Shown: positions 19,738 to 64,000 of the stretch, one piece after another
How positions within the stretch are numbered: position 1 is the stretch's first letter
How the letters are laid out: each line of letters starts with the position of its first letter
Assembly (NCBI GenBank): GCA_019828545.1
Contig: JACVRA010000148.1
Span: forward strand, 248,001-312,000
Direction: 5' to 3'
DNA length: 64,000 nucleotides
DNA from: Paracamarosporium sp. OC-R06-R3
Lineage: Eukaryota > Ascomycota > Dothideomycetes > Pleosporales > Didymosphaeriaceae
The notes under the pieces: generated by a model
What the model was told of the DNA's origin: nothing
The model's input: the letters and a program-made list of their open reading frames with translations, nothing else
Database searches by the model: none
Program-made: the position numbers and the translations under genes

Positions 19738-22462
19738 CTACTTGAGCGTCAACGCAAGACCATCTTCTTGATGTCGTTGAGCACCGGCATCAAGTAGCAT
19801 CTTGACCACCTGCTCGTGCCTATGTTTTGAAGCAGCCTGGAGCGCGTTGCTATAATGGCCACCTTGAGCGTTGACCTCTGCTCCCTTCTCTAGGAGTAGC
19901 TTCACAATCTCCTGCTCACCCTGATATGAAGCAGCCTGGAGCGCGTTGCCGTAATAGCCACCCTGAGCGTTAACATCTGCTCCCTTCTCTAGGAGCAACT
20001 TTACAATCTTCTGCTCATGCCAACATGAAGCAGCCTGGAGCGCGTTACCGTAATAGCCACCCTGAGCGTTAACCTCTGCTCCCTTCTCTAGGAGCAACTC
20101 CACAATCTCCTGCTTACCCCTATATGAAGCAGTATGAAGCGCATTGCCGTAATCGCCACCCTGAGCGTTAACCTCTGCTCCTTTCTCTAGGAGCAGCTTC
20201 ACAATACTCTGAAAACCCCAATATGAAGCAGCCTGGAGCGCATTGCCGTAGACGCCACCCTGAACGTTGACNNNNNNNNNNNNNNNNNNNNNNNNNNNNN
20301 NNNNNNNNNNNNNNNNNNNNNNNNNNNNNNNNNNNNNNNNNNNNNNNNNNNNNNNNNNNNNNNNNNNNNNNNNNNNNNNNNNNNNNNNNNNNNNNNNNNN
20401 NNNNNNNNNNNNNNNNNNNNNNNNNNNNNNGCCGTAGACGCCACCCTGAACGTTGACCTTTGTTCCTTTCTCTAAGAGTAGCTCTACAATCTCTTGCTTA
20501 CCTGCAACTGAAGCAGCCTGCAGTGCGTTGCTGTAATAGCCACCCTGAGCGTTAACCTCTGCTCCTTTCTCTAGGAGCAACTCTACAATCTCTTGCTCAC
20601 CCTTATATGAAGCAGCCTGGAGTGCGTTGCCGTAGACGCCACCCTGAGCGTTGACCTTTGCTCCCTCCTTAGCTAGAATGGACCTCACCAAACTTCGATG
20701 TCCACGAAGTGATAACATGTAAAGAAGTCCTGCATCCATATTATCGTATAAGTCTTTACGTTCTTGGCCTCGTTCAGTTGCATGACGAAATGCTTTCCAC
20801 CATTCGAACCAGCCATTGTCTTCTTGCAGCCATTTCCCTATTCCGTCGGTGTTATCTCCGCATGCAGACAGTCCCTCATCCAAGACCTTCTCAGCATAAT
20901 CGAATATATAACCCGCTGCATAGCCCAGAAACGGATATTTGTAACGCAGTTCCTTGTGTGTCTCGTTCGTTTTTGTAGTGCTAACTTGATCGATGCACGA
21001 CCGACAGAGTACCCACAGTCGGTAATGGCTTGCACGAACAGGGTCTGGCTCTAGACTAGGGTCCAATGTCTGCAGCCTCCCGTTCCGGAGCAGGAAATCG
21101 CTAACTGATAGGTGAATGAATTGCACAATTCTCGCATGCCCGCTTCGTACCTCGACGAGGCCCCGGGACAGGTAGTTGATCCGGTTCTGCACAATGTCGT
21201 CCGTAGCGCTTGATCGAATCCATTGGTCCGTACATGTCGGATCCGTTCCGGCCTTCACGGCGAAGAAGAGCTCCGCTGGCTCTAGCGACCGCTGACTAAA
21301 CAGCACCCATTGCAGCATAAGCACCGTCCAAGCTATGTCCTCTCCTGTGCTTAAGAGAACTCCAAACACTTCCTCAAGTTCCTTTGGGATCTTCTGCAGT
21401 ATATCCCACATCTTACGCACATTCCCCTCTTTGTAAGCCTTGTTGAGCAGGGAGACGACGAGAACAACCCACATGAAGATGCCGCCAGCCTTTTTCTCAA
21501 TCTCGGCCTCAATTTTGTTATCTCGTTTATCCAGCTTTGCTTGGACGTATATGATAATATCTTTCAGGTGGTCTTTGTTGTTATCGACGGTCAGATCAAG
21601 GCACCCTTGAATACTTAGTTCTGGGTAATGACGCCTGGAGAGGCAAGTTCTCAGAGTAGTGCCGTAGCGTATCGCATTACTACTCAACGACTCGAGGAAC
21701 TCCACAACATGTTCCACGTCCACCCGATTGCACTCATCCAGCGCATCCACAAGAAGGATCAAAGGCCTCGATTCCTTCTGTCTGATGACAGAAGTTGTAA
21801 AAGCCTCTAGCTCTTGTAATCGCCACCTCCATTGCCCATCTCGACTGAGATGTTGTTTGTCGCGGAACTTGGTCAAGAATTGCTCAAAAATCACGTCGTC
21901 TTGTTTCACAAGCTGGTATACGATCGACCGTAGCATGCCTAGCGGTGTTTTCTCGAGGGCGCCTCCTTGAGCGTTGAAGAAGTACGCCACCCTCAGATGG
22001 TCGGGGAAGATCTCTTTGCAGTGGCCCAATGTATGCTTCATCAGCGTCGACTTACCCGCTCCCGGCTTGCCTTTAAGGCAGAGCACTCCTTTGTGGGTTG
22101 CGAGGTCGGCGCGCGTCCGCCATTTCTTGAACTCGGTGGTGCGGAATAGCCAGTCGCATGTGTCGTCGACGGCGTCGCATATGTCATGCTCACGATAGTC
22201 AATCTCGAGGAAGCCGAGGGAGCGGAGGCAGGCTGTGAAGTGTTAGCGTTCAGGACATATCATTGCAGGTCGAGCAGAGAGCGGCACAAGCCTTCTTAGC
22301 TCGGCTTTTTAACTTCTGCATATACTCACACGAGCGGTCGCTGACATCCTGGGCTCCGAGTCGAAGGTTATCAAGATGTTCGATGATTAGTTGTTTGCTG
22401 TCGTTTTGAGAAAAATACTGTCGGGAGCTGCGAGATCTTTCGCTAGACATGGACTGTGCCAT
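19738..22462 (-). CDS. NACHT-ankyrin NLR-like (STAND) protein, interrupted by an assembly gap
   Basis: Two exons (22330-22462 and 19738-22232) join in frame. A short 44-residue N-terminal extension leads into SCLRSLGFLEIDYREHDI, the usual lead-in to fungal NACHT domains. The NACHT NTPase shows Walker A GKPGAGKST (about residue 98) and Walker B LILLVDALDE (about residue 203). After a helical arm come at least eight 33-residue ankyrin repeats of the form GGxYGNALQAASxxGxQEIVELLLEKGAEVNAQ. The repeats are unusually alike. Unknown bases at 20272-20430 (159 n) fall inside them, flanked on both sides by the same 27-base sequence, so the true repeat number is not known. Such proteins act as cytosolic sensors in fungal non-self recognition and regulated cell death. 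It faces a HeLo-like gene 537 bp away, in divergent orientation. Confidence 0.88.
20272..20430. other. Assembly gap of 159 unknown bases within ankyrin repeats
   Basis: Runs of n. The 27 bases before and after are the same (GCCGTAGACGCCACCCTGAA plus CGTTGAC). The gap holds 53 codons, whereas a whole number of 33-residue repeats would need 24 or 57, so the gap length is only an estimate. Confidence 1.
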
Positions 22463-50641: not shown

Positions 50642-52534
50642 TTACTGAAGCTCATGCAGCCCTGGATCTTCCCGACTCACATCATGCATGCTGATATCTA
50701 GGACGGAAATTTGCTTCTCCCAAGCGAACCGAGGCTTGATCTCGGCGTGCACAACGTAGCCGTTTGGCAAGAGCCCAAAACTCTTATCGCAAACCCCATG
50801 AGAGAGTTGCTCAAGGAGTTTGTCAAGCGGGCTTCTATTCGGAGGCCGTAAACGATCGATAAATTCTGAAGAAGTGAGCTCATGCAGGTGGAATATTAGA
50901 TACCTAGGGATCCACTCCCGGGGTGAGGTGAAGCCATATTCTTCGAACATTCTCTTATGCAGCCTATTAGTGGACTGGGATAAACCGTTAATCTTTCCCG
51001 TTGGAGTGGCCAAGACCGACTCTCCTATGTCTTGAGCAAGATTGAATACTACGACTTTGCAAAGTCGCTGATTGGGCCCCTGGGTTTCATTATCGAAAAC
51101 CACAGCGATGCAGACCTCTGAATGTTCTGCATCTTTGAAACGGTAAGAGAACACTATAGCGCCCTTGTTCAAGCCCCAAGACGTGCGGGTATCTCGATGA
51201 CTGTTAAATTTACGCCAGAGTCCATTAGGTTCGATCATCGCAACGTTTTGAATGTCCGGTAAGCCAAGACGAATATATACTCCGGACCTCGTATCCAACT
51301 TGAAATCCAGTGGCTCCTTGATGTATATCGTCCTCAAAATGGCCGAGCTTAACTTGTGGGATGGTATTGTCACTAGCCCTCCATGTGGCTCTTCGTTACG
51401 GGCATATTGATCTCTATTCCCTTCCGTCACGCGTAACAGACTAACGCCCAATCTCTTATCGTTAGAGCTGGCATCCTGACACTGGAGCACTGCGATTAGA
51501 TTCCGCTCCGCGTCCTGTTGACTCCGATCAATAAGGGGCAACTCTATTCTCAGCCCGCGGTTGGTCATCGCATATGTGTTCTGCGTCTCATGTTGTGGTA
51601 TCGGAATGACTGCACCAGAATCTCGAAATTGCTGCGGAGTTGAAGCAAGTAAACCAGAAAGTGAGGGTCTAGTATGATCAGCATACCAGTTCCAGGCAAA
51701 GAGAGACTGATCGTCAGAGCTTTTCATGATCTCTTCTTGCAGGCGTATGAACGCTTTAGCTCCCTCACCGTACAGTAGAGGCATATTGACGTCGAATATA
51801 CCAAGGAGGCAGTAGGCAATATCTTCTCCACGCGTCGTAATGCGGTTCGCTGCCCAGGACATTCTAGCTGCCACACTGCAGTGTCGAATGTCGCGACCAC
51901 CTAAAGTATCCACATCGACACCGGTGCAATCGGCAACCAGATCGATGAGGGTCGACCGATCCCCTAGAGGGAACCATTTTCCGTCAATCTGGCCGTAGAA
52001 GAATAATTGAGAAGGCGCAATTAGTTCCTGAAGTGTCCATCCTCGTTTGAACCACTGGCTTGATTGGAAACGCTCGACGTCGTCCCTGCTATCCTCATTC
52101 CACATTACCGCTGCAATCTTGGCATACTCAATAGAAGAAGATTGATTGGCCGAGAAATGAGATTGTATCCACAATCGTTGCTTGGGGGTGAGGTTGACGT
52201 TCAGCTGAACATCCGATAGATATGCGTAGCAGACTGAGGATCTTTTATACCATTGAAACATGGAGTTTATAGCCTCTGATAATTCAGCACTGCTGCTCTT
52301 GTCGATACAACATGTATCAATCCATATATATTCGAAGCCATCCGCTTGTGCTTGCTCACAGCAGCTCATGATCTTAGCGAAGCCTTGCTTCTGGCGGGCA
52401 GCTTGCATGTCGTTTCGCATGTCATCGAACGTAACTTCTTCATCCTCCCATCGATGAGATAGGATGGCGTACGAAGGAACATCTGAGCCAATGAACTCCC
52501 TCAGTTGGAGGGTCTCCACATTCAGCAGGCGCAT
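50642..52534 (-). CDS. HET-domain (heterokaryon incompatibility) protein, 630 aa
   Basis: The N-terminal HET domain shows its three conserved blocks: YAILSHRWEDEEVTFDDM (22-39), GFEYIWIDTCCIDKSSSAELSEAINSM (66-92) and RGWTLQELIAP (164-174). The HET-E/HET-D-like segment ITTRGEDIAYCLLGIFDVNMPLLYGEGAKAF follows. HET domains trigger cell death in fungal non-self recognition and share ancestry with TIR domains. There is no NACHT or repeat domain. The C-terminal half is a conserved but uncharacterised region of this subgroup. Single exon, ending HELQ. Neighbours give no partner. Confidence 0.92.
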   Translation of the reverse strand: MRLLNVETLQLREFIGSDVPSYAILSHRWEDEEVTFDDMRNDMQAARQKQGFAKIMSCCEQAQADGFEYIWIDTCCIDKSSSAELSEAINSMFQWYKRSSVCYAYLSDVQLNVNLTPKQRLWIQSHFSANQSSSIEYAKIAAVMWNEDSRDDVERFQSSQWFKRGWTLQELIAPSQLFFYGQIDGKWFPLGDRSTLIDLVADCTGVDVDTLGGRDIRHCSVAARMSWAANRITTRGEDIAYCLLGIFDVNMPLLYGEGAKAFIRLQEEIMKSSDDQSLFAWNWYADHTRPSLSGLLASTPQQFRDSGAVIPIPQHETQNTYAMTNRGLRIELPLIDRSQQDAERNLIAVLQCQDASSNDKRLGVSLLRVTEGNRDQYARNEEPHGGLVTIPSHKLSSAILRTIYIKEPLDFKLDTRSGVYIRLGLPDIQNVAMIEPNGLWRKFNSHRDTRTSWGLNKGAIVFSYRFKDAEHSEVCIAVVFDNETQGPNQRLCKVVVFNLAQDIGESVLATPTGKINGLSQSTNRLHKRMFEEYGFTSPREWIPRYLIFHLHELTSSEFIDRLRPPNRSPLDKLLEQLSHGVCDKSFGLLPNGYVVHAEIKPRFAWEKQISVLDISMHDVSREDPGLHELQ

Positions 52535-60577: not shown

Positions 60578-60846
60578 CGTGATGTGCGGCGGGTGTCCTG
60601 TGTGGTTAGTTGAGGTCGTTGTTCTCGGTTGCAAATTCGATGCTGTGTGGGCGCCTAGCGCAGAACACTCTTGGCGCGGAACAATACTCGGCCCGCGCTA
60701 AGCTGCGCCTGCGAAATAATTTCTTGTAACGCCAAAGTTAGCTCTTGTCTGCAAAGCTCTACTGCAACACCTGCAATCGCCGACAGCAGCACACCCACGA
60801 CAAGCGCACAATCGCAGAGGAGCGCTATATCTATATTAAATCATCA
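60578..60846. promoter_or_regulatory. Divergent promoter region of uL22 and fibrillarin genes
   Basis: 269 bp separate the start codons of two ribosome-production genes pointing apart. Shared control is plausible. No defined motif is claimed. Confidence 0.6.
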
Positions 60847-62537
60847 ATGGCTTTCACACCTAGAGGACGAGGCGGCGGTCGCGGTGGCGGTCGTGGTGGA
60901 TTCGGCGGCGGCGACCGTGGTGGTCGCGGAGGAGGCCGTGGAGGATTCGGTGGAGGACGTGGTGCTCCGCGCGGAGGAGGACGTGGTGGAGGAGGCCGTG
61001 GACGTGGTGCGCCCAGAGGAGGCGGCCGTGGCGGCCGTGGTGGAGCTGGAGGTGCCAAAGGAGGAGCGTATGTTCAGTGAACCCTTGAGAACCCCTAAGA
61101 ACCTCGAACTTCCCGAGATCTTGGTATGCAAGATCACGGTCGATTCATTTACCCCCTTCTATCTGAGAACCTTATGGATTCGGGCTCACAAATTGCATAG
61201 CAAAGTCATAGTTGAGCCTCATCGCCACGCTGGTGTATTCGTCGGTCGCGGAAAGGAGGATCTCCTTCTCACCAAAAACGTAAGCAATGCTAGGGTACAA
61301 GATAGGTGCTCGTGCTGGCGATTGTCTAAAACTCTCAGACTCTTCACTTGTGTCTGAAAACTTAGGCATTGACAGCTAGCTAAGACACCTATTCCTACCC
61401 ATTCCTTTGATTTTGAACATTACACTGACTTTGTAACCCGCCTTTAGATGACGCCTGGTCAGTCCGTGTACGGCGAGAAAAGAATCAGTGTCGCCAACAG
61501 CGCAAACCCAACCAACGGCGATGATGCACCTGCAACCACCACCGAGTACCGTGTGTGGAACCCTTTCCGCTCTAAGCTGGCAGCTGGTATTCTGGGTGGT
61601 GTCGATAATTTGTACTTTGGCCCGGGCTCGAAGGTGCTCTATTTGGGCGCTGCTTCTGGAACTAGCGTTTCCCACGTGGCTGACATTTGTGGCCCGGAAG
61701 GACAAGTTTTTGGTGAGTTCCACTTCTATAGCAGCCGAAGTTGTTATGTGCCATATATGGATGACTTGCTGACGCCGTTTGTAACTAGCCGTCGAGTTCT
61801 CACACCGGTCTGGCCGTGATCTGATCAACATGGCTACCCACCGCACGAACGTCATCCCTATTGTCGACGAGTAAGCAATGCCAGGGTATAAACTGGGTGC
61901 TCATGCTGGCGATTGTCTGAAACCCCAGACTCCACTTGTGTCTGGAGTTTTCAGGCATTGACAGCTAGCTAAGACACCTACTTCTACCCACTCCCTTAAA
62001 TTTGAACATTACACTGACTTCATACTTCAACCTGCAGCGCAAGGCACCCCATGAAATACCGTATGCTCCTACCGATGGTTGACTGCATCTTCGCGGACGT
62101 GGTAAGTAATGCCAGGGGACGAAGTGGGTGCTCATGCGGGCGATTGTCTGAAATTGTCAGACATTGACAGCTAGCTAAGACACCTACTTCCACCCATCCC
62201 TTAGATTTTTGAACATTACACTAACTTTGTTCTTTGTCTTTAGGCACAACCTGGTAAGTATAACTTTTGAACAATCATTTTTGCGCTTTTCTAATACCAT
62301 ACAGACCAGGCACGTATTGTCGGTCTCAACGCTAGTATGTTCCTCAAGACTGGTGGTGGTGTCCTCATCTCCATCAAGGCGAACTGTATCGATTCGACTG
62401 CTGCACCAGAAGCTGTCTTTGCTGCTGAGGTTAACAAGATGAGGGAAATGGGTATCAAGCCCAAGGAGCAGCTGACGCTTGAGCCTTTTGAGCGTGACCA
62501 CGCCCTCGTGGCCGGTATTTACCAGCGATCATCGTAG
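60847..62537 (+). CDS. NOP1: Fibrillarin, rRNA 2'-O-methyltransferase of box C/D snoRNPs, 317 aa
   Basis: Seven exons: 60847-61067, 61201-61279, 61448-61712, 61789-61870, 62038-62101, 62244-62253 and 62305-62537. Residues 1-73 form an RGG/GAR domain. Then come [35 protein letters not shown], the SAM-binding [44 protein letters not shown], the catalytic-site segment DCIFADVAQPDQARI and the C-terminal [15 protein letters not shown]. The enzyme methylates ribose in pre-rRNA and histone H2A Gln in the nucleolus. Two points are odd. Introns 2, 4 and 5 are close copies of one another, and exon 6 has only 10 nt. All joins are needed to restore the conserved protein, which supports the model. Confidence 0.95.
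61280..61447 (+). mobile_element. Introner-like intron, copy 1 (fibrillarin intron 2, 168 nt)
   Basis: Begins GTAAGCAATGC and ends CCTTTAG. It shares ordered blocks with copies 2 and 3: GCGATTGTCT, ATTGACAGCTAGCTAAGAC (61368-61386), ACACCTA, and GAACATTACACTGAC near the branch site. An internal inverted repeat (CAGAC/GTCTG) can form a hairpin. It is far longer than most other introns in the window (mostly about 48-65 nt). Confidence 0.85.
61871..62037 (+). mobile_element. Introner-like intron, copy 2 (fibrillarin intron 4, 167 nt)
   Basis: Begins GTAAGCAATGCCAGGGTA and ends AACCTGCAG. It is collinear with copy 1 over its whole length. Shared block ATTGACAGCTAGCTAAGAC is at 61957-61975. The central hairpin is clearest here: GTCTGAAAC and CCAGAC pair with GTCTGG and GTTTTCAGGC. 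Confidence 0.85.
62102..62243 (+). mobile_element. Introner-like intron, copy 3 (fibrillarin intron 5, 142 nt), with a shortened hairpin
   Basis: Begins GTAAGTAATGCCAGGGGA and ends GTCTTTAG. Shared block ATTGACAGCTAGCTAAGAC is at 62163-62181. It matches copies 1 and 2 except that about 26 nt of the central hairpin arm are missing between CAGAC and ATTGACAG. Confidence 0.85.
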
Positions 62538-64000
62538 GAGATGAAATGTCGAAGCGACTATTATGTTTTTATGAAACAGATGGGCTGCGTCATGTACCGA
62601 TCACTCGGACAAGCTGGCGTTTCATGGCGCTTGGGATGGGCACTGTTGTACAGATTCTCTAGTTTTCGTATACCAAAATGTTTAAAGTTCATGCGGTCGG
62701 ATCCTATGCATTGCGGAATCTCTATCACGTCGTGTACGACACTGGCCGAGAAGAGAGGTTGGACTTTCTTATGTGTAGTTTGGCGCCGAAAAGTCCTCTA
62801 AGTGGCCGAAGGTATTCATCGGACCACTGACGTACTACCGACGTACCAAACGCCCTAAAACGACGATATCTTAACTGATTGGTATACACCTGGGGTTGGT
62901 GTAGAGCTAGAAAGCTGATATATCATTCTCTTATACAGTCATACTAAGCACGTGTTGTCTAAGTAATTGTTTGGGTCAATCATGCCCTTCCCCTCGTGCT
63001 CAGTCATCCAGGCGGTCCCACTCATCACAGCGGTACGAACTAATTACATCTCCGAACTTATAGTTCGCCAAATCCCATACTCCCGGATTGACGAATGGGA
63101 ACGCTTTCCCGCTGCAATTAAACTCGCTTTACCCTTCTTCAGCACTCTTTGTTCTTCTCTGTGGACTAGAAGGGATGTACGTACGGATATGTAGTGCAGA
63201 GATAGCCCTCGTCAGGACCGGCTGAGGAGATCTTATCGTCCCAATCGTCTCCTGCGTTATCTGTTGGACGTTTATTATGTCAGCCGATGAAGGAGAAGTA
63301 ACGAGTAGAGGGAGGGGTTCATGGATAAGGGTAGGATGTACAGCATTGTCCCAGATTAACTTGTAAATTTTCACAAGCGCCTTTAAAACCAGAATCAGGG
63401 CATACATAGAGGTGTGTGAACTTTTGCGGGATGGGCGTGGGTGGCGGATTGTCCCTGGCTGTGTGTCAGTTGTGGTTGGGTATGTGGTTGTGTCATGGGA
63501 GCTAGAACCTCAGCTTGAGGGACGGTATGGTGAGCGCAGTGGCGCAGGTGGCGGCGAAGATGAGGAAATTCATAGTGATAGGCTAGGTGATCAGTACGAA
63601 GAATAAGACGTCGCGTTTAGATAAGTTTTGCGTGCACGATGACATCCCTTGGGCAGGTAGCTTAACGCGTTCCTCGCGTTGTGTTACCGTCAATGGCTTG
63701 GATGGCGACAGGAAATTTCATTGAGAAACACGTCTGAGTTATGTTTATAAAATTGCAATGAAACTTAATACTCTAATCACCCTATCCCGTGTTTTTTCAT
63801 TCAGACCTTTTGGGTGACTAGCGACCACTACCACAAAGTTATCTTCCTCTAAAAGAAAAAACACAAAGAAGACCTTAGGGTTTCGACTGATTCTGTGGTC
63901 TGTAAAATACCATAGAAGATACGTCGCTCAATGATCACCAATGGAGGACGGGTAAAATTGAAAGGGTTCCTGCCATGCTTGCATAACGGTAATCGAGGCG
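62538..64000. other. Intergenic region to the right edge
   Basis: No gene recognised. Small open frames (for example 62967-63194 plus, 63129-63407 minus) show no family features. The last 300 bp are AT-rich. Confidence 0.45.

Follow-up and report, generated by a model that had tools for sequence, protein, structure and literature searches.

The origin of spliceosomal introns has long been a question, and there are few clear examples in which introns arose by copying. The fibrillarin gene of Paracamarosporium sp. OC-R06-R3 raises the question in compact form: three of its six introns share long blocks of sequence, and the issue is where these three came from. The gene lies in what we call the window, the whole stretch of 64,000 nt that was analysed (G000:C37:248001-312000, from a genome of 43.09 Mb in 337 contigs). 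Elsewhere in the window, on the minus strand at 19738-22086 and 50642-52534, ORFs encode NACHT/ankyrin and HET domains, a combination typical of fungal genes for self/non-self recognition.

The fibrillarin gene and its six introns

The gene extends from start to stop codon at 60847..62537 on the plus strand, with seven exons and six introns. When the six introns are spliced out, an open protein of 317 amino acids remains, and the Pfam Fibrillarin domain (PF01269) covers residues 78-314 (E = 4.8e-101). The related introns, like all those of the gene, are on the plus strand; intron 2 (61280..61447, 168 nt, phase 0) and intron 4 (61871..62037, 167 nt, phase 2) are full-length copies of the element described below, and intron 5 (62102..62243, 142 nt, phase 0) is a copy of a shorter class that is missing the apical stem-loop. 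The blocks common to the three are direct repeats in conserved order, and a search with three core patterns, allowing up to 3 mismatches in each, gave 3 matches in the window and 0 in 100 dinucleotide shuffles. An earlier, sequence-only reading had described such ordered blocks in introns 2, 4 and 5, and we confirmed both its coordinates and the order of the repeats. It had also called the three near-identical; the kinship stands, while the near-identity does not, as pairs of these introns are 79-81% identical.

The remaining introns are of other origin. The profile of the introner family matches introns 2, 4 and 5 and nothing else in the window, and we therefore take introns 1, 3 and 6 to be unrelated to the family, in agreement with what had been read from the letters. 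Intron 1 (61068..61200, 133 nt) is an ordinary, single-copy intron that matches nothing but itself genome-wide; the residues just upstream of K-V-I-V-E-P in the ORFs of related fungi are unrelated, which fits an intron 1 that ends there. Intron 3 (61713..61788, 76 nt) and intron 6 (62254..62304, 51 nt) are placed by the gene model; the former is missed by the family profile, and the latter is an ordinary intron whose position is common to relatives.

The element in the rest of the genome

At least 53 distinct places in the 43.1-Mb genome carry the element, nearly all of them in different genes. These places were merged by hand from several DNA searches, and the number is a lower bound because each genome search scores only about 40 candidates. 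DNA searches of the genome gave at least 41 and at least 42 matches and 56 aligned pieces, with further places added by the profile and by later queries; a pattern search gave 30 matches, compared to 0 for a reversed-pattern control. The 53 places are made up of 41 with 1.5-kb flanks, 11 that were resolved or partly resolved in other stretches, and one on contig C331. The element was not found in the viral contigs that were searched. The genome search had been suggested by the sequence-only reading, and its yield, with 51 of the 53 places resolving as exact GT..AG introns, bears that reading out. Fibrillarin introns 2, 4 and 5 are almost certainly copies of one family of introner-like elements, so that new introns of the Paracamarosporium genome would have arisen as copies, as has been seen before in some other fungi.

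Most copies are 160-172 nt long, and a second class comprises ten copies of ∼134-144 nt. In the ten, the apical stem-loop that is flanked by two TGTCTGAA repeats is missing, and C86 has a different deletion. Descent of the short class as one lineage is compatible with the tree, in that a grouping of its 10 copies is not rejected (p-AU 0.108).

Three genes were hit more than once, and they hold 8 of the 53 copies (3, 3 and 2). Such a concentration is unlikely for random hits over about ten thousand genes, and some genes may therefore be preferred targets. One of the multiply hit genes encodes a class I tRNA synthetase (L091, 491-1605, G000:C135), which we take to be valyl-like from its motifs, and carries introners of 160, 169 and 70 nt. 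The place on C331 (L092, G000:C331:7200-8250) holds a degenerate copy with no long reading frame on either strand and, alone among the 53, may lie outside coding sequence.

Copies as exact introns of coding genes

All 51 resolved junctions are GT..AG, and 43 of the 51 copies have a CTRAY branch-site motif at a distance of 15-45 nt from the 3′ end. Intron lengths are spread evenly modulo 3 (19/16/16 over the 51 junctions). After exact removal of the intron, 34 of the 51 junctions are open for at least 150 nt on both sides; the corresponding numbers (n = 51) are 9 and 13 if one base more or less is removed, 2 if the intron is kept, 8 on the other strand and 1.3 with shuffled flanks. A count of frames open for at least 60 nt (46/51) was dropped as main evidence in favor of the 150-nt count, because its controls are high both on the other strand (36/51) and in shuffles (∼21). 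The counts leave out the copy on C331, with 1,051 bases lacking a long frame, and the copy on C104, where no GT..AG pair restores the frame.

Protein domains point to the same borders. Pfam was applied to 30 of the 51 junctions, and a domain spans 22 of the 30; two more junctions fall between adjoining domains, and six peptides had no match. The domains that are spanned include fibrillarin (three junctions), AA9 (two genes), GH32, P450 (two junctions in one gene), S9 peptidase, rRNA dimethylase, ATP synthase, ABC transporter, aldo-keto reductase, beta-galactosidase, TauD, S33 hydrolase, class I tRNA synthetase (three junctions in one gene), short-chain dehydrogenase, amino-acid permease and GH31. 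Nearly all copies are in the sense orientation within coding frames, the exception being that on C331. Codon phases 1/2/0 occur 22/17/8 times, an uneven distribution (P = 0.04) that is too slight a signal to build on. A nested internal intron in the donor, as in stwintrons, was not seen, and removal of a single GT..AG unit restores frames and domains. Judged by these frames and domains, the copies are predicted to be spliced at these borders.

Sites without the element in relatives and paralogues

If the introners are gains, we expected the same sites to be uninterrupted in related genes. The best 15 of 2101 fibrillarin matches were compared as ORFs, which, to judge from their breaks at different points within the gene, were probably called without regard to introns, and the state of a site was read from where the ORFs break. 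Among these 15 relatives, the site of intron 2 is uninterrupted in 15 of 15, that of intron 4 is crossed by 9 and that of intron 5 by 5; the site of intron 3, outside the introner family, is likewise uninterrupted in all 15. The ORFs P0249, P0251, P0252 and P0253 cross sites 2, 3, 4 and 5 and break exactly at ordinary intron 6, and P0241 crosses site 6 also. A check for absence in relatives had been proposed along with the original reading, and the outcome that would have spoken against it, a lack of further copies in the genome together with the same three introns at these positions in distant fungi, did not appear.

The ends of the relatives' ORFs (P0241-P0255) fall at many places, and several of them miss introner site 4 or 5 by ∼4-5 nt. 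Six end upstream of site 4, three of these (P0242, P0244 and P0245) ∼4 nt before it, and P0247, P0248 and P0254 end ∼5 nt upstream of site 5. With the offsets read from residues, the ends of these two groups of three probably mark introns of the relatives' own. Near-coincident intron positions of this kind have been explained as parallel gains, according to excerpts of PMC4457414. From the variety of ORF ends, fibrillarin intron positions therefore seem to turn over fast among related fungi.

Other genes give similar results. In the dimethyladenosine transferase gene (L021), no insert is present at the introner site in any of 13 aligned relatives (13 of at least 120); the nearest named proteins are from Kalmusia (88%), Bimuria (86%), Didymosphaeria (84%) and Karstenula (83%). 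For the GH47 mannosidase, the nearest named proteins are from Karstenula rhodostoma (88%), Kalmusia (85%) and Pseudopithomyces (85%). Of these genera, Kalmusia, Karstenula and Bimuria belong to Didymosphaeriaceae (Pleosporales, Dothideomycetes), and by these proteins the genome probably falls within that family. The introner site of the AA9 gene on C254 is crossed without a stop by 30 of 37 AA9 paralogue rows, and the paralogues on C225 and C231 have introners at other positions than that on C254. With relatives and paralogues that are without them, we infer that the introners at these sites are gains.

Separate insertions and the age of the burst

The presence of three copies within one kilobase of one gene could also be understood if local gene conversion or tandem duplication had homogenised old introns of that gene. 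This account would leave the at least 50 further places elsewhere unexplained, and it fits poorly with intron 5 being of the short class when introns 2 and 4 are of the long class, as well as with relatives that are without the introns. Moreover, copies that share a gene are not nearest relatives of one another, nor do they group together in the tree: among the pairs of the copies concerned, same-gene pairs rank 39/95, 17/95 and 21/95 in fibrillarin, 56/95 in the P450 gene and 82/95 in the tRNA synthetase gene. We consider local conversion or duplication very nearly out of the question. Since same-gene copies are no closer than random pairs, they would stem from separate insertions rather than local duplication, and the earlier claim that fibrillarin received three insertions of one family is upheld.

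A tree built from 49 copies has the shape of a star (33 of 46 inner branches unresolved, one starred, median end branch 0.12), the pattern that a single burst from a few source copies would leave. Pairwise identity among copies has a mean of 0.776 and a maximum of 0.907. Taken with the star-like tree, these values indicate that the burst was not recent. The original reading had placed the insertions recently and had raised the prospect of an active intron-birth system; the first of these does not agree with the identities and the tree, and we see no sign of present activity, since copies are ∼78% alike on average and their tree is a star.

Among the 49 copies, C→T changes are commonest at CpA (229/1393), compared to 0.072 at CpT, 0.096 at CpC and 0.107 at CpG. 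This context resembles that of repeat-induced point mutation, here on repeats only ∼170 nt long.

Target sites

A purine is found at -1 in 41 of 51 sites and G or T at +1 in 38 of 51, and neither number was reached in 2000 phase-matched samples. GT at +1+2 occurs in 13 of 51 sites, against a background of 5.3%, and this excess could reflect a short target duplication in a subset of copies. AG at -2,-1 is found in 6 of 51 (background 6.2%). When the start of the intron was compared with the start of the second exon, the two shared a mean of 0.80 letters, compared to 0.33 at random positions (sd 0.10). A prefix match of 2-3 letters (GT/GTA) is present in 11 of 41 junctions and 18 of 41 share no letter; thus, a general target-site duplication was not found in these 41 junctions. 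The family offers a testable site preference, unlike the one cited for earlier families.

Structure and splicing signals

The consensus folds into a long hairpin that spans the first two thirds of the element, and single folds of fibrillarin introns 2, 4 and 5 are more stable than shuffles (z = -2.8, -2.7 and -3.3). RNAalifold returned weak local structure only (-2.06 kcal/mol) and not the consensus hairpin. The positions of the hairpin are paired in 89.7% of cells, compared to 89.3% in shuffles, and 21 of 500 shuffles were as high. The consensus also has an exact 11-nt inverted repeat, GGGTACAAAGT/ACTTTGTACCC, located 13 nt inside the left end and 10 nt inside the right end; this length was reached by 2 of 20,000 shuffles. 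In intron 2, the subterminal arms are at 61293..61303 (left) and 61427..61437 (right) on the plus strand, and 9 of the 11 pairs are kept. Across copies, the repeat is paired in 85.2% of cells versus 85.0% in shuffles, with no covariation. As paired fractions for both hairpin and repeat are close to those of shuffles, the copies would be drifting without keeping the pairs. Hairpin and inverted repeat, which have little or no covariation, appear to be features of the founder.

Introns can host snoRNAs, and fibrillarin is itself a protein of snoRNPs, which makes it conceivable that the likeness of the introns comes from one and the same non-coding RNA hosted in each. An Rfam search of 60800-62600 gave no match at E values up to 1, identity stays level along the body and peaks at the branch site, and some copies are without the whole middle, so that we regard a shared hosted RNA as highly implausible. 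Identity is 0.94 at the donor and 0.96 at the branch site, compared to 0.86 for the rest; the acceptor, at 0.86, is no higher. We read the structure as having belonged to the mobile source, and the splicing signals as what matters after insertion.

An inner inverted repeat is also what might be found in a MITE-type cut-and-paste DNA element with ends that happen to serve as splice sites; such an origin has been suggested for many non-ascomycete introners. The repeat would then be the site of a transposase, its exactness and length being in keeping with such a role, and the GT at the 3′ junction would be a short target duplication, to which the letters shared between intron start and second exon lend support. 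Against this, the repeat lies inside the ends rather than at them, conservation reaches the GT and AG borders, and the junctions that share no letter speak against a general duplication. Nor is there a longer element with these ends among the partial matches examined, which are intron copies except for those on C331 and C104; nearly all copies are in sense within coding frames, and the pairs of the repeat do not covary. On balance, we judge a DNA element of this type unlikely.

The route of copying

The best overall explanation, which we hold to be highly probable, is a series of separate insertions of a self-copying spliceosomal introner of ∼170 nt, with a second class of ∼140 nt. As to how it was copied, excised intron RNA, stabilised by the long hairpin, might re-enter other transcripts or transcribed DNA through reverse splicing, and the reinserted intron would then be fixed in the genome. 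Inserted copies would drift, selection being seen chiefly at the donor and the branch site; some would lose the hairpin and end at ∼60 nt. Reverse splicing is favored because exact borders, sense orientation, the hairpin and the lack of a general target duplication all fit it; it is the likeliest route, although we put its chance at about even. Fungal introners have been read as products of reverse splicing, according to excerpts of PMC9860276.

The route proposed for Hypoxylaceae in excerpts of PMC8469720 is different: intron RNA or cDNA would be captured at chromosome breaks by end joining, aided by the symmetrical structure. The GT/GTA match at part of the 3′ junctions is the trace of microhomology that such capture would be expected to leave. 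However, break capture predicts both orientations, truncated copies and small deletions, and nearly all places here hold whole GT..AG introns with the frame kept, with the qualification that selection would remove many failed insertions. This route is, in our view, doubtful. The inner repeat and the GT match nevertheless keep both the DNA-element and the break-capture routes alive beside reverse splicing.

Shortened copies

Three copies approach the size of ordinary fungal introns, which is given as 50-55 nt in excerpts of PMC4457414. The introns on C231 (AA9) and C306 (carbamoyl-phosphate synthase) are 61 nt long, with GTA joined to the consensus from CTTCCACCC onward, and that on C135 is 70 nt long, with GTAAGCAA joined to CCTACTT. 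In all three, the hairpin is lost and the branch site and acceptor are kept; from these joins, they appear to be introners shrunk to ordinary intron size. The edges of the 61-nt form are identical in two unrelated genes, C231 and C306. There might be a standard path, with landing between a purine and G or T and then loss of the hairpin from the donor to a fixed point in the right arm, or the 61-nt form might be a mobile mini-introner; we offer this as a speculation with a small chance of being right. If it is true and the path is common, many ordinary short introns of the lineage would be shrunken introners that no longer look copied.

Comparison with known introner systems

Introner-like elements of Fulvia fulva, Dothistroma septosporum, Zymoseptoria tritici and relatives were reportedly described by van der Burgt in 2012. 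As portrayed in excerpts of PMC4457414 (Collemare 2015), these elements resemble the present family in being spliceosomal introns of near-identical origin that lie in unrelated genes and are longer than ordinary introns, in their predicted stable structure, in the occurrence of two-copy genes, in their decay toward ordinary introns, and in the presence of relatives' introns a few bases from an introner site. The family described here differs in belonging, by its nearest proteins, to another order, Pleosporales, and in occupying at least 53 places rather than hundreds, in a comparison made by description and not by sequence. The site preference also differs: AG/GY is cited for the earlier elements in excerpts of PMC8469720, compared to a purine at -1 and G/T at +1 here.

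The sister stwintrons and cropped sister introns of Hypoxylaceae, as presented in the same excerpts (PMC8469720), share with our family the dozens of sense copies, seamless insertion, inverted symmetry, and size classes that arise from loss of the middle. Those of Hypoxylaceae are twin introns and carry a 10-nt palindrome and terminal repeats of 45-55 nt, whereas the copies here are single introns in which a long hairpin accompanies an 11-nt inner repeat, and their sites show a preference. Introners across eukaryotes (Gozashti 2022, PMC9860276) are likewise many intron copies inserted in genes. Many of those families have terminal repeats and target duplications, and ascomycete families are said, in excerpts of that source, to have neither; our family combines an inner inverted repeat with the lack of a general target duplication.

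Among the matches listed, which did not extend to survey supplements, no introner described in Didymosphaeriaceae or its genera was found, and one paper on Pleosporales mentions introner-like elements as background; a survey may already list this genome. By comparison of descriptions, the element is probably a new family within a known kind, the introner-like elements of fungi. The genome offers at least 53 copies, three multiply hit genes, an empty-site comparison in fibrillarin and intermediates from a 170-nt introner to a 60-nt intron. It thereby extends introner-like elements, earlier described in cercosporoid fungi and Hypoxylaceae, to a Pleosporales genome near Kalmusia and Karstenula.
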